A DNA stretch of 64,000 bases from positions 186,001-250,000 of the forward strand of contig NC_011693.1 in the NCBI RefSeq assembly GCF_000150955.2, in the 5' to 3' direction. This document shows, piece by piece, positions 18,852 to 56,788 of this stretch. The DNA comes from Phaeodactylum tricornutum CCAP 1055/1. Taxonomy: Eukaryota; Bacillariophyta; Bacillariophyceae; Surirellales; Neidiaceae. Below the pieces are notes generated by a model. It was not told where the DNA came from and did not search any database. It saw only the letters and a list, made by a program, of their open reading frames with translations. Position 1 is the first letter of the stretch, and every line of letters begins with the position of its first letter. Both the position numbers and the translations under genes were made by a program.

Positions 18852-20423
18852 CTAGCTCTGTTTGTGCTGTTTGAAAAAGAATGTAGCATTCAGATTGGCT
18901 GTCCCGATTGGACACTCCTGATTCTTGTAGTACCTTGCCATTGCATTCATCCGTGGCAACATTTGACAGAGCATATAGGCCATACGTTGGGCGTCTTGTG
19001 GATTAAGATCATGATGGTTCCCGTCCAGAGTCACCGACGAATTGTACATTGTGGCAAAAATATCATCTGTAGGCGGCAGCGCAAACAACTCGTGTTTACA
19101 AGACAAAAACTCCGCATGCCGGCTTTTGGGGACCTGATACTTGGAAAAGAAATACGGACCCAAAAAATAGCGTTGACAATAGTGAATGACCAGTGGGAGT
19201 TTACTGGCTGGCTGCGGTCGACATACCTGCGCGGCTGATTGTTCGTCCACCCACGCCCACGCTTCACCCTCTCCCGTCGAAATGTCAGACAGCATGAAGC
19301 TACGCGCAAGTTGATGCGGCAGTTTTAGGTGAGCCGCCGCTACCGAATACGCAAACATTTCCGATAGGTGGTTTTCCGTCAGTTGATACACAGGAACGGC
19401 CATCTCGGCCCATGTGCGAACGATCTCGTACATATCACTCCCTACCGCCATATAGGGTGGCCCAGCCGCGTAGTGATGTGCAACATCATCTCTTGTCCAG
19501 GATTTCAAGCCAGACGTCACGGTGGTGCTATTCAGCACAAATGTGGCATTGATTTTATCTATCCATCTTGCGCCAAAACCGTAAAGCTGTGCCACTGGCT
19601 TTCCACGTTCTACTTTGACAGTTGCTTCCAACGGCATCGTTACCCACAACTCGGCATCACGTCGGTATTCGCGCCGAAAGGGCCGAGTGACAAACTGATC
19701 AGGATCCAGAATGACGAAAACGGCATCTCCCAAGTTAGACGCCTTTGTAGTATCACTCTGGTCCAATGAAAATCCCAAGCCTTGCTCCATCCAATGTCGT
19801 AAACCCATCGGTTTATTGAAGAATTTGTAGTTGACGCCGGGAATGCTCGTTTTGCTATAATCTGGAGTCAAGTGCAAGTGAAAACGGTCCGACATTCCCC
19901 TGACGATCAGTCGATCGTGATTCAGTAATATTTGCTCGGCATCACGTCCTTCGCATCCCGATGCGACCCGTGTTACGTGTCCCTTATGTCCCGAATACCA
20001 CGCTTGGAAGAAAAATCCGTATGACTGCCAGTCTTGAAAGACCGAACAGCCCGTACTAAAAACCAAATGGACATCTTCATCCTCTGTGGTAGTTCTTTCC
20101 AGTACATCTTGTTCGTTGTCGTTTTGGGAAGCGGCGCCTCGATCTACAAAGTTCTCCGTAGCCGCCAAAAGCTTGTCCGAAACATCCATTTGCGGCAAAC
20201 GGTGCTTGTGTATATACCGAGATGATGTTAGCGGTGGCGTCGTCTCGTTCCTTGTTTGCTGGTAGCGTTCGTCGCCCGACGAAGTATGGGCGTAAAACGA
20301 ACCCATGGCGTCGATCACTCTGAGATTCATTGCCCACGTCCATGACAGATACATACAGAGGGCAACGGCCAACGTACACATCCAGCGGCAGCTGCCGCTC
20401 GGCCCCTTCGCTGTCCGCGCCAT
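18852..20423 (-). CDS. Peptidyl-serine alpha-galactosyltransferase / arabinosyltransferase-like protein
   Basis: Golgi-type glycosyltransferase related to plant and algal SERGT/HPAT enzymes that modify serine or hydroxyproline in wall glycoproteins. A single signal anchor (residues 14-32, WMCTLAVALCMYLSWTWAM) is followed by a Ser/Thr-rich stem. The catalytic region starts with VFSTGCSVFQDWQSYGFFF and GHVTRVASGCE, the diagnostic start of this family, and contains ILDPDQFVTRPF, a DxD-like metal and nucleotide-sugar site. 523 residues fits one catalytic domain. The start at 20423 is an ATG directly before the anchor. It lies head to head with the first GT92 gene, with 637 bp between. Galactose versus arabinose transfer cannot be told from sequence. 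Confidence 0.78.
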   Translation of the reverse strand: MARTAKGPSGSCRWMCTLAVALCMYLSWTWAMNLRVIDAMGSFYAHTSSGDERYQQTRNETTPPLTSSRYIHKHRLPQMDVSDKLLAATENFVDRGAASQNDNEQDVLERTTTEDEDVHLVFSTGCSVFQDWQSYGFFFQAWYSGHKGHVTRVASGCEGRDAEQILLNHDRLIVRGMSDRFHLHLTPDYSKTSIPGVNYKFFNKPMGLRHWMEQGLGFSLDQSDTTKASNLGDAVFVILDPDQFVTRPFRREYRRDAELWVTMPLEATVKVERGKPVAQLYGFGARWIDKINATFVLNSTTVTSGLKSWTRDDVAHHYAAGPPYMAVGSDMYEIVRTWAEMAVPVYQLTENHLSEMFAYSVAAAHLKLPHQLARSFMLSDISTGEGEAWAWVDEQSAAQVCRPQPASKLPLVIHYCQRYFLGPYFFSKYQVPKSRHAEFLSCKHELFALPPTDDIFATMYNSSVTLDGNHHDLNPQDAQRMAYMLCQMLPRMNAMARYYKNQECPIGTANLNATFFFKQHKQS

Positions 20424-21060
20424 GGTGGAGACTGTGACGCCTTGGCATTTTGGTGGTCCTCGGTGACGGTTTACATTACCTGACCGTGAAAATACTTCTT
20501 GTCGTCTATCCGTCCATGACTCGTATGTCTTCTGTGGTGTTCTGGTCGGAGTTGTTCCGAACGTACGACTTTGGATAATATGTCTGATTTACCTCTATTT
20601 ATTTATCATTTATGTGGCGGTGCGTTTTGTGCGACGGGAATGCAGGTAGCATTTCCGTTTTTTCCACGGTCCAGTTTGTCAAACACTATTTGTGAGAAAA
20701 ATCTCGCATAGGCACCACATAGCCGGACGAGGATTGTGTCTCGACACACGTTGTAGTGCGCGCGTTTTTACTTTGTAGGAAACGTTCCTATAAGGAAGAC
20801 TGCACAACAAGAAACAGCGCCTGCCGAAGAATCCAAAGCGTAAAGTGTTTGCTTGTATACATCTTTTTGGATAGCAGAGCCGGAACGCAAGCGTGTAGAC
20901 AAGGTCGGCACCGGGTTCGCCCTTCTTGAGACCCACATCGGTTTCGTAGCCGTCCACGCTCTGTTCCGACGGTGATCCTTTGACGGTCCCTACACGGACA
21001 GTCAATCAGTTTCCAAAGCGACGGGCTTGTATTTTCGTACGCCACAAAAATTCTGGTGCA
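20424..21060. promoter_or_regulatory. Divergent promoter region, SERGT-like / GT92
   Basis: 637 bp between two head-to-head glycosyltransferase starts. It must hold both promoters. I see no TATA box at a convincing distance and no repeat. The GT92 reading frame runs open from 20980 but without an ATG before 21061. Confidence 0.45.
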
Positions 21061-23496
21061 ATGGCAGTGCCATTGGGTTTTCGCCGAACGCGCTTATCGC
21101 TTCTTTTTCTATGTTGCCTAGCTTTATACTTTCAGAGTAAGGCGTTGGTTAAAGTTTGGAACAACGATGTGCCGAACTTGGACACCATACTTGGATCAAA
21201 TCCTTGGCTATTCAACGACCAAAGTCAAAAGTCCACTTTATCCCTCCACGAAGCTGGAGTCAGCCGAGGGAATACAAGGAACGCTAGACACAAGACTACC
21301 AACGTAATAAATTCACCATTCGTCGCAGGCACGACCACATCTAGTCAAGCGGCGAGCGTAATCGAATCACTGTTGCTCACAGATCAAGGCTTTGGCGCGT
21401 GTTTGATAATGAAAGACGACAATCATTGGCTGATCGAATGGATTGCCTACCACTACCACGTCTTGCCTTTAAAGCATTTAATTGTGTTGCGCGATCCGCG
21501 AAGTCTCACACCGTCCCAGCACATCTTTGACCGTTGGAATCAAACCTATTTGGAAATAGAGGAATGGCAGGACTCTCGCGTCACTCCGATTTCTGTGTAC
21601 GAGCGAGGTACCAAGAAGAAAAAAACGGATCTTCAGTACCATTTGACGCGACAGCGCTTCTTTTACTCCAAATGTTTGAAACATCTGAAGCAGGAGCAAA
21701 CGGTGCAATGGGTATTGCTGACAGATACAGACGAGTTTGTGCGTGTGAATTCTTTGTTGTATCCACTGTCGGCTTCCGTGTTGCAACAACGGGGCCACGT
21801 GAGTGCATTTTTGGCCCAGCGAAAAGTGCAGGATCCGTGTTTACAGATGCCCCGCATCCAAGTGTCTTCGATACGAGCTAGTGAGAGTAGTATCAATGAC
21901 CAAGGAAAAATCGATGCGTGGAAACGGGCTGAATCTATTGAGGGGCTGAATGCGTCTGATTTCCTGACGTATCAATGGCTCGTTCACAACAACCAGGCAA
22001 TGTCAGTGGGGAAGAGCACAATGTACTTGCCTACGCTGAAAACGAATGACATTCCGTCTTTGGCAGATTCAGTGCATCGTATTGTGTCGAGTGTGTGTCC
22101 GGAGCACTCTGAGTCGTTGCTGAACAGCACGAGATCGTATCTTTCCGTGATGCACTATCTCGGAACTTACGAACAGTTTAGCTACCGGACTGATCCTCGA
22201 GACTATGACGCAAAAGATGCCGAACGACCTCAAAGAGAGTTTCAGCATTTGAAAAGCGCCTCAGTTAAGAGTCGTGTTGATACCTGGTACCATCGAGGTC
22301 GGAAGCCTGCAGCGTCCACATTGGATGTGGGCATGACGCACTGGCTGCCTGGGCTGGTGGAGACAGTGGGCTTGTACGAGGTAAAGAAACTACTGGAAAA
22401 TGTGGGCGTTTTGGAGTCGATTCCAGTAGAAACATCACAACACAACAAATCGAAGCGGCAACCAGAAATTGATGTGGAGGAAGAAGTATTTTCTGCGTGT
22501 CTGCTGACAAAGGACGACAATCACTGGCTGATTGAGTGGCTAGCGTATCACTACTACGTTTTCAAACTACGAAGGCTCACTGTGGTGCGTGATCCGACTA
22601 GTCGAACTTCGATTGAGGCTATTTTGGATCGCTGGAAGGATCGCATGTCTATCTCTGTGTGGAACGATGAGCAATTCGTTCCTAGTTGGATCCTACAAAA
22701 GCACAAAACGAGAGGAATCAGTGATACGTTGCTCCACCGTTACCGGCAGCAGTTCTTTTACAGTTCATGCATGAAAGACTTTAAGCAACGGGATCGGAGC
22801 TGGCTAGCTCTGGTAGATACTGACGAGATCCTGCGGCCAAATCCGTACGTCCTGACAGCCCCGATAGATTTGAAAGTGGAGGGTATTGGCTTGACACTGC
22901 TTGAAGAGCAACAAAAGAAGCGAGCTATGAGGGCTGAAGACGGACCTCTGAAGTGCATACATGTGCCACGACTGCAGATAGTGTCGACGGAAGCGAATGC
23001 TTCCACTGTCAGCTCGGATATTCCACTGGGATTGAACGGGTCGGACTTTCTCACCACGCGGTGGTTGTACCACAACAACCGCGAAATATCGATGGGCAAT
23101 AACTTGGACGGCAAGAGCGTTTTCAATCTTCAGTGGTTGGATGAATCTGCAATTCCCAAAAGAGCGGCGAATGCTCATTATATCATTCCGGGTGTGTGTC
23201 CGGAGACGTCAGGTGACCGGCTCGACCACCCTGATAGTTGGCTGTTGATTCACCACTACTTGGGTTCTTTAGAGCAGTTTGTATCTCGAGACGACCCCCG
23301 GAACAGCATAGAGGGACGTCCGAAGCGAGATGCAAGTCTGTGGCGGCAAACGGGTCAGAGTCCTGCAGCAGACACGTTTGACGATTCGTTACGGTCCTGG
23401 CTGACTGGGTTTGTAGAATCGGTAGGCTACGTCGATGCTAAGCGGCTGTTGGCGGGAGTGGGACAAGTGGAGGAGTTGAGTCCAATGACAGCGTAG
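21061..23496 (+). CDS. GT92-family glycosyltransferase, double domain (copy A)
   Basis: 811 residues. A signal anchor (SLLFLCCLALYFQSKAL) gives a type II Golgi layout. Two GT92/DUF23-like domains follow: the first begins near residue 112 with FGACLIMKDDNHWLIEW and carries LLTDTDEF near 219; the second begins near 477 with SACLLTKDDNHWLIEW and carries ALVDTDEI near 582. Each also has HNN and a C-terminal H-Y-L-G motif. GT92 enzymes transfer galactose to glycans in animals and plants; the substrate here is unknown. The two halves are diverged copies of each other, and the gene is duplicated again as copy B with about 99% identity. The ATG at 21061 is the first in frame. Confidence 0.88.
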   Translation: MAVPLGFRRTRLSLLFLCCLALYFQSKALVKVWNNDVPNLDTILGSNPWLFNDQSQKSTLSLHEAGVSRGNTRNARHKTTNVINSPFVAGTTTSSQAASVIESLLLTDQGFGACLIMKDDNHWLIEWIAYHYHVLPLKHLIVLRDPRSLTPSQHIFDRWNQTYLEIEEWQDSRVTPISVYERGTKKKKTDLQYHLTRQRFFYSKCLKHLKQEQTVQWVLLTDTDEFVRVNSLLYPLSASVLQQRGHVSAFLAQRKVQDPCLQMPRIQVSSIRASESSINDQGKIDAWKRAESIEGLNASDFLTYQWLVHNNQAMSVGKSTMYLPTLKTNDIPSLADSVHRIVSSVCPEHSESLLNSTRSYLSVMHYLGTYEQFSYRTDPRDYDAKDAERPQREFQHLKSASVKSRVDTWYHRGRKPAASTLDVGMTHWLPGLVETVGLYEVKKLLENVGVLESIPVETSQHNKSKRQPEIDVEEEVFSACLLTKDDNHWLIEWLAYHYYVFKLRRLTVVRDPTSRTSIEAILDRWKDRMSISVWNDEQFVPSWILQKHKTRGISDTLLHRYRQQFFYSSCMKDFKQRDRSWLALVDTDEILRPNPYVLTAPIDLKVEGIGLTLLEEQQKKRAMRAEDGPLKCIHVPRLQIVSTEANASTVSSDIPLGLNGSDFLTTRWLYHNNREISMGNNLDGKSVFNLQWLDESAIPKRAANAHYIIPGVCPETSGDRLDHPDSWLLIHHYLGSLEQFVSRDDPRNSIEGRPKRDASLWRQTGQSPAADTFDDSLRSWLTGFVESVGYVDAKRLLAGVGQVEELSPMTA

Positions 23497-23526
23497 CATT
23501 CCGGACAGTGCATGGCATACTCCAGG
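21361..23526 (+). repeat. Tandem segmental duplication, copy A
   Basis: This 2.17-kb stretch is repeated colinearly, without length change, 3,227 bp downstream at 24588..26753. It starts at ATCGAATC inside the gene and ends about 30 bp after the stop (GGCATACTCCAGG). The flanks, the signal anchors and the promoters are unrelated. Confidence 0.93.
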
Positions 23527-24326
23527 TCTTTTTGACAGCTTTGAGAACTGTCTTGCTGATTCGCCTGAACCTTGGTTTCATCATCATTTTGGTGTCGATA
23601 GTCGTAGGTGGCAAAGTTTGTTATCAGGAGATTTTTTCGCAGGAGTCACATACTACTGGCCTCACTCTCAAGCGGTATGTGTCGTAGATACTGAGAGTAT
23701 TTCTCCGCCAGTCAAGGCTTTTGTCGCCAATAGGTCCTGTGTTGATGGCAGAAAACTTTCATGGCGGCTCGACCGTGGTCACTCCGTGTCTTTGTGATAG
23801 GCGTTTCGGCTGCATGATATGGTACAAAAAGGTCTTCCTCACATCACTGTCATTGGCAATCACTGTCATCTTTCATTCAAAGTAGATCGAACAGTATATT
23901 TCCATTACACATTGCTCTATTCCCTGTGACATCATTTGTTAAATATAACCCTTGTTTGCAATGTCGTACTGTAGAGCAAGCGAGACTTACATTTAACGGC
24001 AACAAGGCGAGTGCTTTCACCGGACCGGGATTCTGCTGGGAATTGGACGCATGACTGTAAACTCAAGTGTTGAGATCTGTAACACCACAAGGTCCTAAAA
24101 AAAAAGGTGCTCCGAGCTATCAGACTGTCACAACAGGCCTCCGGCGTTGCGTGGTGACATACGAAACCGAAATTGACATCCAACAAGTTAAGAAGAGCCG
24201 CATAACTCTCTTTCATAGGAGCGGACTGGAAGCTACGAGCTGGCATATTCGTATACACAGCATTCTAAATTTGAGGTTGTAACGGAACAGGAGCCGGGCC
24301 CTGACATTCCTACGAAAAGGGGTGAG
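23527..24326. other. Intergenic between the two GT92 genes
   Basis: 800 bp of unique sequence with the promoter of copy B. Open frames of up to 108 codons on the minus strand have no recognisable content. No part of the duplicated unit extends here. Confidence 0.5.
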
Positions 24327-26723
24327 ATGATCCTCCGAAGAACCTATCGTCAACTGTTTTTCAAATACGCCTTTCTGCTACTGAGTTTCGGAGCCCTTTA
24401 CTTTCAAAGCAGAGGCCTGTTGGGGATATGGGATGAGAATGCGCACACTTGGACAAACGTGCCTGATCCTTCGTCTTGGTTGAATGAAAACAGAAACCGA
24501 GGACCATATTCGATACACTCGGTTGCAACTATAGAAGGGAGAAACTCTCTTACAGCTAGGCATTCTTCCAATGAAAAATATAACGCTATCGAATCGCTGT
24601 TGCCCACAGATCAAGGCTTTGGCGCGTGTTTGATAATGAAAGACGACAATCATTGGCTGATCGAATGGATTGCCTACCACTACCACGTCTTGCCTTTAAA
24701 GCATTTAATTGTGTTGCGCGATCCACGAAGCCTCACACCGTCCCAGCACATCTTTGACCGTTGGAATCAAACCTATTTGGAAATAGAGGAATGGCAGGAC
24801 TCTCGCGTCACTCCGATTTCTGTGTACGAGCGAGGTACCAAGAAGAAAAAAACGGATCTTCAGTACCATTTGACGCGACAGCGCTTCTTTTACTCCAAAT
24901 GTTTGAAACATCTGAAGCAGGAGCAAACGGTGCAATGGGTATTGCTGACAGATACAGACGAGTTTGTGCGTGTGAATTCTTTGTTGTATCCACTGTCGGC
25001 TTCCGTGTTGCAACAACGGGGCCACGTGAGTGCATTTTTGGCCCAGCGAAAAGTGCAGGATCCGTGTTTACAGATGCCCCGCATCCAAGTGTCTTCGATA
25101 CGAGCTAGTGAGAGTAGTATCAATGACCAAGGAAAAATCGATTCGTGGAAACGGGCTGAATCTATTGAGGGGCTGAATGCGTCTGATTTCCTGACGTATC
25201 AATGGCTCGTTCACAACAACCAGGCAATGTCAGCTGGGAAGAGCACAATGTACTTGCCTACGCTGAAAACGAATGACATTCCGTCTTTGGCAGATTCAGT
25301 GCATCGTATTGTGTCGAGTGTGTGTCCGGAGCACTCTGAGTCGTTGCTGAACAGCACGAGATCGTATCTTTCCGTGATGCACTATCTCGGAACTTACGAA
25401 CAGTTTAGCTACCGGACTGATCCTCGAGACTACGACGCAAAAGATGCCGAGCGGGCACAGAAACAATTTGAAAACATTAAAAGCACCTCAGTTAAGAGTC
25501 GTGTTGATACCTGGTACCATCGAGGTCGGAAGCCTGCAGCGTCCACATTGGATGTGGGCATGACGCACTGGCTGCCTGGGCTGGTGGAGACAGTGGGCTT
25601 GTACGAGGTAAAGAAACTACTGGAAAATGTGGGCGTTTTGGAGTCGATTCCAGTAGAAACATCACAACACTCCAAATCGAAGCAGCAACCAGAAATTGAT
25701 GTGGAGGAAGAAGTATTTTCTGCGTGTCTGCTGACAAAGGACGACAATCACTGGCTGATTGAGTGGCTAGCGTATCACTACTACGTTTTCAAACTACGAA
25801 GGCTCACTGTGGTGCGTGATCCGACTAGTCGAACTTCGATTGAGGCTATTTTGGATCGCTGGAAGGATCGCATGTCTATCTCTGTGTGGAACGATGAGCA
25901 ATTCGTTCCTAGTTGGATCCTACAAAAGCACAAAACGAGAGGAATCAGTGATACGTTGCTCCACCGTTACCGGCAGCAGTTCTTTTACAGTTCATGCATG
26001 AAAGACTTTAAGCAACGGGATCGGAGCTGGCTAGCTCTGGTAGATACTGACGAGATCCTGCGGCCAAATCCGTACGTCCTGACAGCCCCGATAGATTTGA
26101 AAGTGGAGGGTATTGGCTTGACACTGCTTGAAGAGCAACAAAAGAAGCGAGCTATGAGGGCTGAAGACGGACCTCTGAAGTGCATACATGTGCCACGACT
26201 GCAGATAGTGTCGACGGAAGCGAATGCTTCCACTGTCAGCTCGGATATTCCACTGGGATTGAACGGGTCGGACTTTCTCACCACGCGGTGGTTGTACCAC
26301 AACAACCGCGAAATATCGATGGGCAATAACTTGGACGGCAAGAGCGTTTTCAATCTTCAGTGGTTGGATGAATCTGCAATTCCCAAAAGAGCGGCGAATG
26401 CTCATTATATCATTCCGGGTGTGTGTCCGGAGACGTCAGGTGACCGGCTCGACCACCCTGATAGTTGGCTGTTGATTCACCACTACTTGGGATCTTTAGA
26501 GCAGTTTGTATCTCGAGACGACCCCCGGAACAGCATAGAGGGACGTCCGAAGCGAGATGCAAGTCTGTGGCGGCAAACGGGTCAGAGTCCTGCAGCAGAC
26601 ACGTTTGACGATTCGTTACGGTCCTGGCTGACTGGGTTTGTAGAATCGGTAGGCTACGTCGATGCTAAGCGGCTGTTGGCGGGAGTGGGACAAGTGGAGG
26701 AGTTGAGTCCAATGACAGCGTAG
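24327..26723 (+). CDS. GT92-family glycosyltransferase, double domain (copy B)
   Basis: 798 residues with a true ATG. The first 88 or so residues, including the signal anchor (YAFLLLSFGALYFQSRGLL), are unrelated to copy A except for the short ALYFQS motif. From ATCGAATC onward the protein is nearly identical to copy A. The second domain is identical residue for residue; the first differs at a few scattered sites and in one short block (ERAQKQFENIKST against ERPQREFQHLKSA). Role as for copy A: Golgi type II glycosyltransferase with two GT92-like domains, each with a DTDE motif. The different stems may direct them to different Golgi compartments (inference). Confidence 0.88.
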   Translation: MILRRTYRQLFFKYAFLLLSFGALYFQSRGLLGIWDENAHTWTNVPDPSSWLNENRNRGPYSIHSVATIEGRNSLTARHSSNEKYNAIESLLPTDQGFGACLIMKDDNHWLIEWIAYHYHVLPLKHLIVLRDPRSLTPSQHIFDRWNQTYLEIEEWQDSRVTPISVYERGTKKKKTDLQYHLTRQRFFYSKCLKHLKQEQTVQWVLLTDTDEFVRVNSLLYPLSASVLQQRGHVSAFLAQRKVQDPCLQMPRIQVSSIRASESSINDQGKIDSWKRAESIEGLNASDFLTYQWLVHNNQAMSAGKSTMYLPTLKTNDIPSLADSVHRIVSSVCPEHSESLLNSTRSYLSVMHYLGTYEQFSYRTDPRDYDAKDAERAQKQFENIKSTSVKSRVDTWYHRGRKPAASTLDVGMTHWLPGLVETVGLYEVKKLLENVGVLESIPVETSQHSKSKQQPEIDVEEEVFSACLLTKDDNHWLIEWLAYHYYVFKLRRLTVVRDPTSRTSIEAILDRWKDRMSISVWNDEQFVPSWILQKHKTRGISDTLLHRYRQQFFYSSCMKDFKQRDRSWLALVDTDEILRPNPYVLTAPIDLKVEGIGLTLLEEQQKKRAMRAEDGPLKCIHVPRLQIVSTEANASTVSSDIPLGLNGSDFLTTRWLYHNNREISMGNNLDGKSVFNLQWLDESAIPKRAANAHYIIPGVCPETSGDRLDHPDSWLLIHHYLGSLEQFVSRDDPRNSIEGRPKRDASLWRQTGQSPAADTFDDSLRSWLTGFVESVGYVDAKRLLAGVGQVEELSPMTA

Positions 26724-26753
26724 CATTCCGGACAGTGCATGGCATACTCCAGG
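24588..26753 (+). repeat. Tandem segmental duplication, copy B
   Basis: Direct repeat of 21361..23526 with no insertions or deletions. About 25 differences were seen by eye, more than half of them within one 40-bp island at 25454..25487. Confidence 0.93.
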
Positions 26754-28592: not shown

Positions 28593-29211
28593 CGGCTCTA
28601 TTTTATGTGCAAACATCTTTTCGTGTAGTCGTGCACTTGTTGAAAGGAACATTGACTTACAGTTGATGCTGACACAAAACTGTCTGATCGGGAAATTGGT
28701 TCACCTTTTCAGGCGACAAAGGACAAAGGGTGCAGAAAAATAAGACCATAATGTGAGACAGGATCTGCGATAAAAAGGTCAAAACTACCGCCAGCCGAGA
28801 AACTCATCGAAAGCGTTCCCATCCCTAGTCCCACAGGGTACCGTGAATCGTTTTCTTGATCAGTCGGTGTGAGCATTACATTTCATTAATTGTATCTATA
28901 AGTATTTTGCAGGAACGGATACCCTACGGACGGCTTTCTGGATGATACAGTCGGTGTTCCAGTGAATACGTTGTTGATCCATGTGGGAAGCCACAAAACT
29001 ACGTGTGTTTCCCGGCACTCAACGGACGTGAGTTTGTCCAAAAAATCAAACAGTCTTTCTTTGGTAGTAGGACCGGTGACAAAACTCACAACGCTGAAAG
29101 ACAAGCCACAAATATTTCGTCGAGTTGAAAATCAAGGCTCGACTCTCCATTCTCTCTCTGCGTCAAAACGAGGTGACTGTGAAGAAGAACAAGCCGAGTA
29201 ACGCTTCCAAG
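28593..29211. other. Intergenic
   Basis: About 620 bp. The transporter frame is open from 29125 without an ATG. A CTTACAGTTG motif at 28656 resembles the TAACTGTAA repeats seen in other spacers of this window. Nothing else recognised. Confidence 0.45.
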
Positions 29212-30483
29212 ATGTTTAACCTGGAATATAGTCCTATAAAACATCGCAACAGCGTAGCGACGACTCACCGAAAAGGCAGTAAGGCGAACGTCGAAATGAT
29301 TCCTAGTGGAGGGGACAGCGAGAAAGACGAAGTCAGCACTCCTCTCACCGAATCTACAGCATCGCCATCTACTCGATGGCAAAGCGACGCCGAGCACGGC
29401 CGTGTTCGAAGGCAGCCTGTAGCACCACTCTTGCAATTACCTGAATTGAAGTATGAATCACAACACAATGGTGACGAACCGACTTACGCTGAAAAAAGAC
29501 CACATTTGGACGTTTTGAGACTGTGCTTTGGCTGTTCCGGAGTCCTCTTTGCCTACCTAATCTACGGTAGTATCCAAGAGGACGTATTTCGGTATCGTGG
29601 AGAAGACGGCGAGAAATTTCAACACGTATGGTTCCTGCAAGTCCTAGAATCTGTAGTCAACGTTTTTGTCGGACTCATTGCGCAGAGTTACTTCGGTGGC
29701 ACCCCGGGAATCCCAATTACTCCCTTTCTGACATCGGGGGCCTCGCAAGTGTTCGCCAAAGCTTTGACGAGTTTGTCCTTATCGGCCGGGTTGTCCTTCC
29801 CTGTCTGCACGCTTGCAAAATCGGCGAAGATTGTACCCGTCATGCTAGGGCAGCTGGCGCTCGGAGGCTCGCGATATACCGTACAGGATTATGCGTTGGC
29901 CGGGGCGATTGTTATGGGAACGGCGCTTCTATCTCTGGGTGAATCGTCAAAAGAGGGAAAGGCGTCGATGAGTTCACCGATTGGCATTGTTTTTATTCTA
30001 CTTTCACTCGTCATGGACGGGGTAACAGCAGGACTTCAGAAGCGACTGAAAAGTGACGCCGCCAAGACCGGAAAACTCCCCACAACTTACGATTTCTTGC
30101 TCTACACGAATTTGTCCATGGCCGGCACGGCGTTGACTATATCCATTATCAACTACGATTTTGTCGACGGGTGGATTTTTCTCACCGAGCACCCCGATAT
30201 ACAACGCATGATTGCGATGGTATGCCTTTGTTCTGCTGTGGGGCAATCTTTTATTTTTTACGTTGTTGCGCAGTTTGATCCACTCGTTTGCGCCACGGTT
30301 ACCACTACGCGAAAAATTCTTTCCGTTGTGTGGAGCATTGCAACAAAAGGCCATCACATCTCGGGACAGGGCTGTGTTGGTCTAGGCCTCGCCATTGGTG
30401 GACTGCTGATGGAAATTCGCGGCAAGGTCTGCAGTATGCAACGTAGAACATATGAGACCAAGGACAGCAACGACCTTCATTGA
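29212..30483 (+). CDS. SLC35B-type nucleotide-sugar transporter (SLC35B1-like)
   Basis: 423-residue multi-span membrane protein of the nucleotide-sugar transporter superfamily. Ten or so hydrophobic helices follow a hydrophilic N-terminus of about 90 residues. The motifs LAKSAKIVPVMLGQL and SAVGQSFIFYVVAQFDPLV followed by TTTRKILSVVWSI match the SLC35B1 signature (K-s-k-P-V-M, G-Q-x-F-I-F, T-T-R-K). In animals SLC35B1 supplies the ER lumen with ATP or UDP-galactose; the substrate here is not predictable. There is no obvious C-terminal KKxx ER-retention signal. The first in-frame ATG (MFNLEYSP) was chosen. It fits the surrounding glycosylation genes by supplying lumenal donors or energy (inference). 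Confidence 0.85.
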   Translation: MFNLEYSPIKHRNSVATTHRKGSKANVEMIPSGGDSEKDEVSTPLTESTASPSTRWQSDAEHGRVRRQPVAPLLQLPELKYESQHNGDEPTYAEKRPHLDVLRLCFGCSGVLFAYLIYGSIQEDVFRYRGEDGEKFQHVWFLQVLESVVNVFVGLIAQSYFGGTPGIPITPFLTSGASQVFAKALTSLSLSAGLSFPVCTLAKSAKIVPVMLGQLALGGSRYTVQDYALAGAIVMGTALLSLGESSKEGKASMSSPIGIVFILLSLVMDGVTAGLQKRLKSDAAKTGKLPTTYDFLLYTNLSMAGTALTISIINYDFVDGWIFLTEHPDIQRMIAMVCLCSAVGQSFIFYVVAQFDPLVCATVTTTRKILSVVWSIATKGHHISGQGCVGLGLAIGGLLMEIRGKVCSMQRRTYETKDSNDLH

Positions 30484-33821: not shown

Positions 33822-33957
33822 GGGGAACATTGTTTGGCCAGAAATCATAAGAATCAAATCCTTTCATGGGACTCCTAAAACGTCGTTGAGGAAACATTCT
33901 TTTACCCGTTTCTTTCTCAAGTCTGTTCACTGCCGAGCAGGCACAGCCGTTGCACAA
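33822..33957 (+). repeat. MULE left terminal inverted repeat
   Basis: 136 bp; pairs with the inverted copy at 37977..38112. Starts GGGGAACATTGTTTGGCCAG and ends GCCGTTGCACAA. Confidence 0.93.
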
Positions 33958-34003
33958 TAGGCCGTGTGCTAGCTGTGCACTGCTTAATGTAGCATTGTGA
34001 ATC

Positions 34004-36958
34004 ATGGCTGAGACCAAAAATAGAATTGCCGCAGCTTTGGCTTTTCCTTTCAATAAGACAATAATGGATGGTATTCTAAAGGACGTACTAGACCAATGCA
34101 TTGCAGACAAGAAAAGGTGGAATACAGTCAGCATTCCTTTTCCAACGCAAAACGGAGAAGTAAATTTATGTGACTACATTGGTTTTGATTGCAGGCTCCT
34201 TGGGGAGTGTTTTGTCTTTCCAGATCAATACAACTCAAGTTCAAAAGAAACCAGAGCTAGGTTGGCTAAAGCTCTAAAGATTGCTGCAGCTGAGGGTAAA
34301 TTTCCCCTTGTTGAGCGAGGATGGGATGAAAAGAAGAAACAAATCCGTTTTGAGTGCTTTCGAAGCCGATCACACAGTGAGAGAACATATCAGAAAAGAC
34401 AAGGGACAAGCTTCCCCAGAGAAGACGCGAAGGCGTGTAGTACTTCCTCTAAGCGGCCGGACAAAGGGAAAGAATGCCCATTTCACTTTTATCTCTACTG
34501 GGTTCAAGAGGAGAGGCATTGGTGTCTTTTTGGTGGCGCAAGGGGGAACTGTAACTCTCACTCTCATCATTTGCCAATGGAGCCTCATGAAGTAAAAAAG
34601 AGTATTGCCTACATCAATGGCCACGAAGTCCAAATTGCGCTGGATGCAGCCACAAGCAGTGCACCACCTAGTGTTATTGGAAAAATGCTCCAGTTACAAA
34701 CTGGCAACATCTTGTTGGACTCTTCTTTGCAACACATAAGGATGCGGTCGGGAAAAGAGCAAGAAACAGTGTTGCTCTAGGATGAAGAATTCATGACGCA
34801 GGCAGACAAGCTTTTGTCCTATCTTGAGAACACTCCCGAGATCAGCTTTTGTGCTATATACGATGACCCAGATTCACCTCTCTTCACAGTTTACAAGCAG
34901 AGAGCAAAAAAAGACCACAGGCATCTACACACAAGTATTAGAGTTAACTCCGGGGTATCTGCTGAAACGGGAATTCTTGACAACACTACACTAGATGCAA
35001 TGGATCCCAATGGAGAACTTGATGACTATGTTGACCGCACACGTTGCGCATTCAAGCTCCTTGGCTCGCAAAACATGCTGTTAGGAGTTGCCTGGACAAA
35101 TAATGAGAGCAGAAATGTATTCTCTCGTTTTTCGGAGATAATGGTAGTAGATGTGACGGAAGGCACAAACAACGCCAAGCGACCGCTATTTCTATTCTCT
35201 GGGAAGACGTCAAACCAAAACACTTTCACAGCACTGTGGGCTTTTTTACCACAGCAGGCTTGTTGGGCCTTCCATTGGGTGTGGACTCGATGCATACCGC
35301 AACTACTCCCAAAGCAAGGAATTCAACATGCGCCTGACAATAACAGATGGAGATCCAAAACAGTACAGGACCTTTGTAGATGCAATACCAACTTTCTACC
35401 CTCTTTGCAAACACAAGCTTTGTCACTGGCATCTACTGTATCGCAGTAATCTCATGAAGGTGCAGACTGGAAAATGTGGAGTTAAAGCTACTATTCTATT
35501 CCGCGTAGTTGTTCTTTGGATTGAGAGCTGGATGACCAAAATTGAGACACAAGAGGAATACGAACTTTCTAAAAGGCTCTTGGCTGATTGGCTTGCAACC
35601 CCCGAAGCTATTGATGTCAAATTGGGTGGTATGGGGCAAACTATTGTATCGCAAATTAATGCGTACATGACACTGTCACTTTTTCCTCATGAACAGCGCT
35701 GGGCTAGATATCGCTATTTATACACACAAGCATTCAACACATCTGCAAGCTCGTATGCCAAGGCAGAAATAGTGCTTTAAAACGACGGGGCGACGGGGTC
35801 AGGCCAAGCTTTTCCGTACCAAAAGCAACTCAGGTTATAAACAAAGGGACACAACCTAGGTCAAAGAAGAGGCATCAAAAAGCTGTTTACAATTTAAATG
35901 CTGCCAAGACGAGAAAGCCTGCCTACTACGCAAACATTCGGGATTTAGTGGATTACATTCAAGATTCTCTTTCCAAAGATTTTGAAGCAGTTGCTTCATT
36001 TGTGCTCTTCTGTCCAAATGCAGACCAGTTTTGGGTCAAGCAAGCCACTCGCAAAAGCAAAAACACGGACATTCGGAAAATCAACGACAGTAGCTATTAC
36101 AAGTACATGATTCCGCAGTTTGAACGCACACGAATTGTGGAGCTTGTTAATATTGATGGTACATTCTATTTGGTGTGTAGCTGCGGAAAATTTCAGCGAC
36201 AAGCTTCCCCATGTGCCCATCTTTACAAGGTTCTTGGTCAATCACCCACATCAACCGATGTCTCTGTACGCTGGACAAAGCACTGGGATGTGTATTTGCA
36301 CCGAAGTGGCCACAGTGACCTGTCAAAGCATTTGGAAGACCTGTACAAACAGGAGCGACCAGGTCCAGTATTTGTTGATAGTGGTCAGTGGGTGATCGGA
36401 AAAGGTGAAAAAGGGTCAAATTTTTTCGAAACTTCGCTTCCGTACAAGCCCCCTGTCATACGAGATTTTAATCGATGGGCAGTGTCTTCGCAAACGACTG
36501 GAGCTGATTTGAGTGGGACCAAAAATACCACAAATATGTATTTTTCGAGTGGAATGGTGCAAGAATCAACAAGCCTGTCCAGAGAGCATGCATTCCAGGA
36601 TTCATTGCATTAAACTTCCACAAATTCGCAAAATTCGGATTGTTTTGATGATACACAGGCAGTGACAACGGAAAGCGTATCTTCTACGAAAAGAATGTTT
36701 GGTTCAAGTGCTTTTGTGCACAATTTCCATTTCTACCAGGAAATGTCCAAGCTGGCAGGATTTGATATGGAAGCTGCTGAGTCGATGAATATAGCTATGC
36801 AAGAAGCATTGGAAAAGGTACAAGCCAATGTTGCAAAAAGGGCTGGGAAGATGGATTACACTATAGGACCAGCCATTACAAAGGACCATGTAGGTCTAAG
36901 ATTGAAGCCAAGCTACAGTCCAAAGAAGAGGAGGAAACCAAACTTACAAAGGAAATGA
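34004..36958 (+). pseudogene. MULE transposase, disrupted
   Basis: ATG at 34004, 46 bp inside the left TIR. The product is a MULE-type DDE transposase. The N-terminal region has Cys/His and SHSHHLP patterns; the core runs through VVDVTEGTNN, LWAFLPQQACWAFHWVW and ITDGDPKQYRTF with CHWHLLYRSN, which fit the MULE catalytic region. A SWIM finger C-x-C-x(n)-C-x-H (CSCGKFQRQASPCAHLYKV) lies at about 36175..36235. The frame is interrupted by an in-frame stop near 34778, a frame change near 35320, a second break around 35780-35945 and a stop near 36612, so no full protein is made. The residues around the breaks keep homology, so the decay is recent. Confidence 0.8.
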
Positions 36959-36974
36959 AATAATTTTACTTACA

Positions 36975-37976
36975 ATTACTGATTTACATTAAACAATACA
37001 GGCGTTCTTCACTAGTCTGTAAGCCGTGATCATACCACCAACGAAACTCCCCGCACAATATATCCGCCAGGCCAAGGCAACTTGCCAATACACTATTACA
37101 GCCATGCCGTCCACACCACCAAATCTCTACTGGAACATGTGTCGGAACCAAGGGAACAACTATACAAAGCCTTGCCTCCGTGGCCATTGGTTGAAGGGAA
37201 ACCATTCTTGTGTACAATTCCAAGCGTAGCCTTGGGTATTGTCCAACAAGCATTGCACCGGTAGATTGTCGCTTTTCTGTAGTTTTTTGTTGATACACGC
37301 CAGCAAAACCTGTGTGTCCTTTACCATGTTTGGTATACTTGCGTCGTCGGTTTGATTGACCGACGGAATTCGATTCGTTGCCAAGGCTTGGGCCAAGACA
37401 AAGTCGGCGTCCAATGAGTATTGCGCATTGATCCTGGTTGGTGCGTACACCATGGCGGCGCGGCAAGCGTGTGGAGCCATCCCGTGTAACGCGTCGCAGA
37501 AAAATTCTTCAATCAGACTGCGTTTCTCCGTCGGCACGTGAAAGTTGACCACGGTAACGTTGGAGTCCGTAGGGCTTGGTAACGTTGACGTACCACATGA
37601 CTGTACTGGAACAGTGAGAAATTGCTTTAAACACTTGTTCCACTTCTTTGGCGTGGGCATTGGGTACCTGAGTGGGGTGCAAATTCTGCAGAGCATCCAA
37701 CCGCAAGGCCGTACTCAACGATCAAATGGACGGTTGACGACTTCGGTGATATGGAAAGGGCCAAGGATAATGGAAAATATTGACTGCAATTACAGACTCC
37801 GGGGCCCGCGCTCGCCTTTCGGCACGAAAGACCAAGCGGCACACTACAGGACCGTATGTTGTCAACGCAAAGTAAACAGAGGCGATCACAAGATACAAAC
37901 ACATCAATCCTTGCACCAAAACTGCATCGTACGAAAAGTAAGCAACACCAGCATGTACTTGATCATGATAAATGCT
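36975..37976 (-). pseudogene. Membrane-protein-like coding segment inside the MULE
   Basis: Between the transposase and the right TIR the minus strand has three coding-like blocks: a hydrophobic helix (GLMCLYLVIASVYFALTTYG, about 37815..37880), a Cys-containing lumenal-like block of 178 codons at 37160..37696 (EEFFCDALHGMAPHACRAAM, LLDNTQGYAWNCTQEW), and a second hydrophobic stretch (MAVIVYWQVALAWRIYCAG) at about 37020..37090. They lie in two frames separated by stops, as for a degenerated or intron-containing gene. No family recognised. It may be a host gene fragment captured by the transposon. Confidence 0.4.
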
Positions 37977-38112
37977 TTGTGCAACGGCTGTGCCTGCTCG
38001 GCAGTGAACAGACTTGAGAAAGAAACGGGTAAAAGAACGTTTCCTCAACGACGTTTTAGGAGTCCCATGAAAGGATTTGATTCTTATGATTTCTGGCCGT
38101 ACAATGTTCCCC
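37977..38112 (-). repeat. MULE right terminal inverted repeat
   Basis: 136 bp, inverted copy of 33822..33957 with about 3 mismatches. Ends CAATGTTCCCC. Confidence 0.93.
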
Positions 38113-50871: not shown

Positions 50872-51188
50872 ACAATATACGCAAATGCACAGGCCGTGTG
50901 AGCGTTGGAGTCTCGCCGCGACGTCGGGAAAAAATTTCATGTTGTTCAAGCGCTGCGAGTTCAGCCTTGGCGAAGGGACGCGGAGGAGGATCTGCAGGAA
51001 GGGGTCGTGGCAAAACAGGAGGGCGAGGACTTCATATGCAAAGGCACAGTTTGTGTGAGCATTTGAGTATTGCCGCAATGTCGGGAATAATGTAGGGTTG
51101 TTCGAGCGCTGCGAGTTCAGCCTCGGCGACGGGATGCGGAGGAGGATCTGCAGGACGAGGTCGCGGCAAAACAGGAGGGCGAGGTCCC
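50872..51188. repeat. Tandem duplication of ~160 bp inside the inverted-repeat element
   Basis: Copy 1 at 50872..51032 and copy 2 at 51033..51188 share AGCGCTGCGAGTTCAGCC, CGGAGGAGGATCTGCAGGA, GGCAAAACAGGAGGGCGAGG. They differ by scattered substitutions and a few short gaps. On the minus strand both copies read as similar peptides (PDVAARLQRSHGLCIC, PDIAAILKCSHKLCLC). Confidence 0.8.
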
Positions 51189-51703: not shown

Positions 51704-51909
51704 TGTTGATCAAACTCCTGGTAAGGACAACGTCTCACCAGAAGTTCAATCGCCTACTGCTAAAAGACAAGTCGCTTCCGTCCCACACACAACGAATCAC
51801 AGCCCCACAGTCCCTACAAATATCCAAGAGTACAATGTAGACTCATAATCTTCGTAGTTCATCGTTTTCCTCAACTGTGATCTTCATCGTCATTTTGTGT
51901 TCTTCAATA
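51704..51909 (+). repeat. Copia 5' LTR
   Basis: Begins TGTTGATCAAACTCC and ends TTCTTCAATA. About 98% identical to the 3' LTR at 55356..55561. Confidence 0.92.
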
Positions 51910-55355: not shown

Positions 55356-55561
55356 TGTTGATCAAACTCCTGGTAAGGACAACATCTCACCAGAAGTTCA
55401 ATCGCCTACTGCTAAAAGACAAGTCGCTTCCGTCCCACACACAACGAATCACAGCCCCACAGTCCCTACGAATATCCAAGAGTACAATGTAGACTCATGA
55501 TCTTCGTAGTTCATCGTTTTCCTCAACTGTGATCTTCATCGTCGTTTTGTGTTCTTCAATA
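55356..55561 (+). repeat. Copia 3' LTR
   Basis: Same ends as the 5' LTR. A purine-rich stretch (GCAGCGAGGG) lies just upstream, fitting a polypurine tract. Confidence 0.92.
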
Positions 55562-55751: not shown

Positions 55752-55949
55752 GAGGAAATTCACTAAATGGGATGGAAAAAGGTGAAAACTCCCTTAAAGG
55801 GGACAGAACGTGTTCACTCTAAGTAGCATCATTTGGAGCTCAAACATTGTTATGTATTCAAACTATTTAAAGTAAACAACAAAATTTTAACCTTGATGCC
55901 GACGTTTCCCGCCACGATGTTTATCGCATGGTCTCCGATGAGAGTGAGA
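55752..55949 (+). repeat. Left TIR of the 1,037-bp element
   Basis: 198 bp; begins GAGGAAATTCACTAAATGGG. Confidence 0.92.
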
Positions 55950-56590
55950 TATGCGATCGTACTCGTCTTCGTCGTTGGTAAAAAGTGCCACCCACCGCTT
56001 GGGATGCTGAACAATCAACGTACCTCGCATTCGGACGACGGCGCGATTGCTGGAGATCGAACGACGTTGTGGCGGTCGTCGAAGACTCGGAGGGGTCGAC
56101 GATCCCTTCCAAAATTCGATGGGGATCGTACAAATAAAACGTAACCTCGGCATTGACGTGTGCCCGTGAATGCTTGTCATGTTGGGGCTGCTTTCTCATC
56201 CAACACGCAGACTGTCTGCGGAGCAAAGTGCATCTGACCAGTGCCGTGAACGTCAACGTTGGGGGGATGAGGGGTGGCTCTTCGGAAACGCGACGGGAGG
56301 TGGACGAAACCCGGCGTAACGGGTCATCGGTGATTTATAGTCTACCGCAACGTGTGGAGGGTGGGGTGCCACCCTGGGATGCCCATCGGCTATCATCATG
56401 CTCAGAGTGCATTGTTTGGAAAGCCCTACAATGAAAACGTTTCCGTTACGACTCCTTCGACGGTCCAGGACCAACTAATCCAGAGAGTCGCTGCCGTTGC
56501 AGCCTTCCAGATTGTCGCCCGAAGTCCCCAACGAGGTTTGCTACCGTAACAAACGTGAATTTCTTTGCGATGACAGGTGGGTTGCCCTGT

Positions 56591-56788
56591 TCTCACTCTC
56601 ATCGGAGACCATGCGATAAACATCGTGGCGGGAAACGTCGGCATCAAGGTTAAAATTTTGTTGTTTCGTTTAAATAGTTTGAATACATAACAATGTTTGA
56701 GCTCCAAATGATGCTACTTAGAGTGAACACGTTCTGTCCCCTTTAAGGGAGTTTTCACCTTTTTCCATCCCCTTTAGTGAATTTCCTC
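56591..56788 (-). repeat. Right TIR of the 1,037-bp element
   Basis: 198 bp; inverted copy of 55752..55949. Confidence 0.92.

Follow-up and report, generated by a model that had tools for sequence, protein, structure and literature searches.

How do two neighbouring genes come to be almost identical over most of their length and yet deeply different at one end and in one short block in between? The question is posed by a tandem pair of glycosyltransferase-like genes in the diatom Phaeodactylum tricornutum CCAP 1055/1, lying in the 64,000-nucleotide stretch of contig NC_011693.1 that was analysed as a whole and is here called the window (GC content 49.6%). The answer that we favour, and consider highly probable, is an old tandem duplication of the whole gene followed by interlocus gene conversion of the gene body, which would have left about 35 bp of the old divergence in place. 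The features on which the argument turns are collected in Table 1.

Table 1. Features of the tandem gene pair and of a second mosaic pair of the same family (positions are those of the window, except where C10 coordinates are given).
Feature	Position	Strand	Remarks
Gene 1, GT2/GT92-like, 811 aa	21061..23496	+	single open frame; glycosyltransferase-like domain present twice in tandem
Gene 2, tandem paralogue, 798 aa	24327..26723	+	single open frame, two-domain layout as in gene 1
Gene 1 N-terminal anchor region, unconverted	21061..21360	+	homology to gene 2 anchor at protein level only; 15/20 silent codons differ
Gene 2 N-terminal anchor region, unconverted	24327..24587	+	protein-level homology to gene 1 anchor
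Homogenised tract, gene 1	21361..23526	+	begins at codon 101, ends 30 bp beyond the stop
Homogenised tract, gene 2	24588..26753	+	gap-free alignment with gene 1 tract
Diverged island, gene 1	22224..22258	+	15/35 bases differ; within codons 388-400
Diverged island, gene 2	25451..25485	+	within codons 375-387
Double difference in one codon, GTG/GCT, V/A	22007..22008	+	candidate micro-remnant or double mutation
Three differences in 14 bp, AAC/TCC and CGG/CAG	22444..22457	+	near end of domain 1; candidate micro-remnant
Gene 1 domain 1 and linker, glycosyltransferase-like	21388..22485	+	KDDNHWLIEW, DTDE, HYLG
Gene 1 domain 2, glycosyltransferase-like	22486..23493	+	42% identity to domain 1
Second tandem GT2/GT92-like pair, mosaic	C10:918532-919950 / 921722-923131 (locus L024, C10:916500-926400)		77% protein identity

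The likely start of gene 1 was taken to be the ATG at 21061, the mechanically called open reading frame beginning at a TTG at 20980. Both genes exceed the cut-off of 27.5 bits for Pfam PF13704, Glyco_tranf_2_4 (33.7 and 33.8 bits), and fall just below the cut-off of 23 for PF01697, Glyco_transf_92 (22.0 and 22.1 bits), so that the GT92 label of the original prediction rests on a sub-threshold match and ‘GT92-like’ is a fair name for both. The DTDE motif, present in both domains, may be a DxD-type metal site like that of GT-A glycosyltransferases, and roles for KDDNHWLIEW and HYLG are likewise presumed. A hydrophobic stretch near the start of each protein suggests a type II membrane anchor. A search for solved structures related by sequence gave a single, non-significant match (E 0.62), and a predicted model of domain 1 was discarded (mean pLDDT 38.2). 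The 19 family matches in this genome represent 15 genes by count; the 13 genes outside the window have open frames of 197–569 residues (introns being ignored), less than the two-domain layout, and the other members share at most 46% identity with gene 1 in any matched piece. Two peptide patterns for each collection fitted 23 stretches in a prokaryote genome collection and 29 in viral contigs, none of which was confirmed as a relative, a search too narrow to prove absence; among the papers listed on GT92 or DUF23 in diatoms, these genes were not the topic of any title. Less than 2.5 kb from the pair lie, on one side, a sub-threshold match to hydroxyproline O-arabinosyltransferase (18852–20423, minus strand; 23.0 bits, cut-off 23.9) and, on the other, a gene for a UAA transporter family protein (29125–30483, plus strand), with a DUF1997 gene between the latter and gene 2. 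The pair and both flanking genes possibly form a candidate neighbourhood of glycosylation genes.

Over 2,166 bp, at an offset of 3,227 and without a single indel, the two tracts differ at only 27 positions, matching the prediction of two copies of about 2.17 kb, 3,227 bp apart, with no change of length. Examined along the alignment, as had been proposed, these differences are clustered and not evenly spread: 15 of the 27 lie inside the 35-bp island, the remaining 12 being scattered over the other 2,131 bp, and when 27 differences were placed at random 20,000 times, the densest 35-bp window never held more than six. The island changes seven residues of a 13-residue block (ERPQREFQHLKSA in gene 1, ERAQKQFENIKST in gene 2), in good agreement with the anticipated block of about 39 bp, some 15 bases and 7–8 residues, the bounds of which were right to within a few bases. 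The longest identical run between the copies is 807 bp. Two adjacent doublets, 22007/22008 and 22444/22445, occur among the 12 outside differences, where 0.06 would be expected (P 0.0014). Once each doublet is reduced to a single difference, clustering outside the island is weak or absent (P 0.04 to 0.23, depending on distance). The parts of the tract to left and right of the island differ at 8/863 and 4/1,268 positions (Fisher P 0.079), and no difference in age between them is claimed.

Silent sites set the parts of this mosaic apart. Where the two genes encode an identical residue (M and W excluded), silent differences were found in 15/20 codons of the anchors and 3/6 codons of the island (small samples, particularly the latter), against 4/272 in the left tract and 1/390 in the right. 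With 5/662 silent codons different in the tract, silent sites have been homogenised and not only residues. Along the whole pair, silent differences form 20 runs where 45 were expected, a value that none of 20,000 permutations matched; restricted to the tract, the longest-run test becomes weak (P 0.049), although the runs test still holds (P 0.003). Since the silent divergence of the island is like that of the anchors and unlike that of the tract, the preferred reading of the island is a piece of the old layer that escaped conversion, which favours the original suggestion of a conversion that missed this block.

The anchors themselves had been described as unrelated, a claim that is contradicted at the protein level. 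Their local BLOSUM62 score is 92, compared with a shuffle mean of 25 and maximum of 62 (0/2,000 shuffles reaching 92), and the homology is co-linear over about 75 residues, hydrophobic segment included. The same residue is found in 23 of 84 aligned anchor codons, which makes them old, highly diverged homologues, although an identity of only about a quarter and the part played by the hydrophobic segment count somewhat against the case. In the alignment with gene 1, about 15 codons are missing from the gene 2 anchor immediately before the tract begins. The promoters, on the other hand, do appear unrelated, as had been claimed: nucleotide comparison of the upstream and 3′ flanks revealed no convincing similarity (best E 0.01, on the opposite strand). 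The tract is bounded on the left by a diverged homologous anchor and on the right by an abrupt end, beyond which there is no detectable homology rather than old divergence. Inside the tract, the island borders the near-identical sequence to its left and to its right with diverged homologous DNA. Because the anchors are homologous, their silent sites are largely changed and the flanks are dissimilar, the most convincing reading of the pair is a whole gene that was duplicated long ago and whose body was homogenised recently, and not a recent partial copy placed upon two different anchors. That the anchors are old homologues also helps the conversion reading.

A second mosaic was found within the family. 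In the tandem C10 pair, bases differ at 137/426 positions in codons 1–143 and 30/93 in codons 361–391, compared with 1/129 in codons 392–434, and silent differences follow suit (24/71, 8/16 and 1/41, respectively), the other blocks being intermediate (7/41, 6/21, 17/124 and 13/31). The silent runs test gives P 5 × 10−5 (20,000 permutations) and the longest silent-identical run P 0.005. The diverged blocks of this pair, codons 188–220 and 361–391, are not at the position of the window pair's island. A further pair, on C17, with copies about 15 kb apart, one of them containing stops, shows 73% identity over 1,158 aligned positions and from 12 to 39 identical bases per 40-base window along the aligned part, a range for which selection or introns could partly account, this pair having been tested by nucleotide windows only. 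In 105 comparisons among 15 family sequences (the C41 member and domain 2 of gene 2 left out, gene 1 split into its two domains), the longest shared exact DNA was 411, 116 and 42 bases in these three same-neighbourhood pairs (window, C10 and C17) and at most 18 bases in the other 102. Exact matches above 18 bases being confined to same-neighbourhood pairs, neighbourhood goes with shared DNA; a younger duplication would also lengthen such matches, and it is the mosaic that argues for conversion.

Outside the family, similar clustering of silent differences is present in some tandem genes and absent from others. Light-harvesting genes gave 50 genome matches; 30 loci were cut out, and 11 of them supplied 8 pairs, some with partial frames because the first ATG of an open frame was taken as its start. 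Silent differences were clustered in two of six neighbouring pairs (L036 with L037 on C24, P 0.001; L044 with L039 on C2, P 0.0096), the other four giving P values of 1.0, 0.31, 0.42 and 0.55, and in neither of two dispersed pairs (P 0.28 and 0.14). The two clustered pairs are possible further cases of conversion, with clustering weaker than in the window pair. In a tandem HSF pair, silent differences are unclustered both over the full open frames (125/220 in 372 codons, P 0.74) and in a shorter comparison from the first ATG, from which much of the DNA-binding domain is absent (P 0.37). The first hundred codons of this pair are conserved in protein, so that likeness at silent sites does not follow there from residue conservation alone. 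With two of six light-harvesting pairs clustered and the HSF pair not, the effect is neither confined to the GT2/GT92-like family nor universal, and short-range conversion may occasionally affect tandem genes of this genome.

Other origins of the island can be weighed against these data. Conversion from a third copy had been offered as an alternative, and if a third member of the family had donated a short patch to one of two near-identical genes of recent origin, one dense block would also result; the family is large enough to harbour such a donor (15 genes by count), and a donor might have been lost, left unassembled or carried on the other haplotype. The window's own assembly (27,450,724 bp, 88 contigs), searched by DNA, by protein and with both island patterns, lends this no support: DNA searches with a 201-bp region and with the whole tract recovered the two window copies only, and at up to three mismatches each island version occurred only at its own place. 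As the remaining members are also too distant from gene 1 (the 46% ceiling given above), and such a donor leaves the diverged anchors unexplained, this origin is very unlikely. Still less can be said for a local mutational burst (error-prone repair or a template switch) striking one of two recently duplicated copies. A single cluster event could make 15 changes in 35 bp without an indel, and adjacent doublets do occur elsewhere in the tract, but the island replacements are conservative (R/K, E/Q, Q/E, H/N, L/I, A/T, P/A), and their BLOSUM scores add up to 38, where random changes made at those sites average 25 and 26 (P 0.0012 and 0.0015). It is on this ground that a burst was rejected. Moreover, 8 of the 15 changes are at third codon positions and only one at a second position, while 38–39% of random island versions contain a stop; conservative replacements in a frame that has been kept fit a long-diverged coding block. 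An inversion of the island was also considered and rejected (best ungapped match to the reverse complement 50%), and a burst, too, would leave the old anchors unexplained, making it extremely improbable.

The reference is one sequence for a diploid, and a usual Sanger read is shorter than 807 bp, so with an identical run of that length part of the near identity could reflect assembly. A long-read study (PMC9266582) reports several haplotypes for the species and calls its own assembly collapsed. Mixing or collapse of copies in the reference is nevertheless a highly improbable source of the whole pattern: collapse makes copies alike and would not make a coding-compatible island, the assembler kept 27 differences apart, and the C10 pair presents a similar pattern with more differences throughout. 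Selection to keep the island, its seven residues giving the two enzymes different properties, is not exclusive of conversion after an old duplication but a sub-case of it. The conservative replacements and intact frame are in its favour, and divergent islands under ongoing conversion have been interpreted in this manner for the copepod GOT1 genes (PMC3728101). Selection on residues by itself, however, would not raise silent differences in the island, and silent sites there have diverged too, which needs age and not selection; in addition, the block sits in a stretch mostly missing from domain 2 (in the alignment of the two domains of gene 1, a gap covers most of the island), and the diverged blocks of the C10 pair are elsewhere in the domain. 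Such selection is possible, if unlikely, and most simply the island was missed by chance.

Conversion of the body after an old whole-gene duplication could have proceeded as follows. Tandem duplication of the whole gene would have given both copies; later, a break or nick in one body may have been repaired from the neighbour 3.2 kb away, with ectopic copying from codon 101 to just past the stop (30 bp), in one patchy event or in several. The left tract edge adjoins the anchor length difference of about 15 codons, a heterology that could stop branch migration. The 35-bp block might have been left by mismatch repair restoring it, or by two tracts ending on either side of it. How the exchange took place (by heteroduplex repair or as two neighbouring tracts), which copy acted as donor and in what order things happened are all inferred from one assembly. 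At the P. tricornutum mutation rate of 4.77 × 10−10 per site per generation given in PMC6604790, the 12 differences in 2,131 bp would place homogenisation about 6 million generations ago, an uncalibrated figure that assumes all 12 to have arisen afterwards. ‘Recurrent’ conversion, as first proposed, is plausible at this pair given the adjacent doublets and the second mosaic pair on C10. Shared catalysis combined with different targeting, likewise first proposed, would be a possible consequence of the arrangement. A wider generalisation, in which short-range, patchy conversion would rewrite neighbouring GT2/GT92-like genes again and again, keeping catalytic bodies alike and leaving anchors, promoters and small loops different, with islands kept by selection, seems to us decidedly unlikely; if true, it would be a constant-core, variable-ends way to run several versions of one glycan-making enzyme.

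The window also contains repeats and mobile elements. A 1,037-bp element (55752–56788) has 198-bp terminal inverted repeats, 98% complementary. The 9-bp sequence GTTATTTCG stands unchanged and in direct orientation on either side of it, as expected of a target-site duplication. Counting both of its own termini, its end sequence has at least 41 genome matches (40 of 87 candidates scored), and it resembles a non-autonomous Mutator-like element that has moved recently. Beyond the gene pair, about 7 kb downstream, lies a 4.3-kb element (33822–38112) with 136-bp terminal inverted repeats (98%), an end that has 15 genome matches (its own two included) and open reading frames matching ZSWIM RNaseH-like and SWIM zinc-finger entries. 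An exact target duplication was not found at its repeat ends as called; the element is probably a Mutator-like transposon. A tandem repeat of period 156 bp is present in two copies at 50877–51184, near direct repeats at 51704–51909 and 55356–55561 that are 98% alike.

Interlocus gene conversion is a textbook process, and what is new here is the example and possibly also its clarity in diatoms. Among the listed titles of open-licence papers on conversion in Phaeodactylum or in diatom paralogues, none describes such a mosaic tandem pair, which is weak evidence of absence. That one pair displays an unconverted end, a converted tract and a surviving remnant makes it a clear natural record of ectopic conversion in a diatom, and it carries a caution, in that converted gene bodies would pass for recent duplicates in trees or in the dating of duplications. 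The closest parallel is the GOT1p1/GOT1p2 pair of the copepod Tigriopus californicus, duplicates in which near-identical and highly diverged regions are read as ongoing conversion (PMC3728101); several populations were compared there, whereas here a different family in a different organism is represented by one assembly. In diatoms, mitotic recombination between homologous chromosomes is reported (Bulankova et al. 2021, as cited in PMC9266582), and if it takes place in vegetative P. tricornutum cells it could provide both machinery and opportunity, although that case concerns alleles and the window pair consists of paralogous loci 3.2 kb apart. Conversion has also been considered for diatom paralogues before: the silicon transporter genes SuSIT1 and SuSIT2 of Synedra ulna are identical, and conversion is offered as a possibility by their authors (PMC6114903). 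Identity there extends over the whole structural gene, making recent duplication and conversion hard to separate, whereas the mosaic of the window pair separates them.
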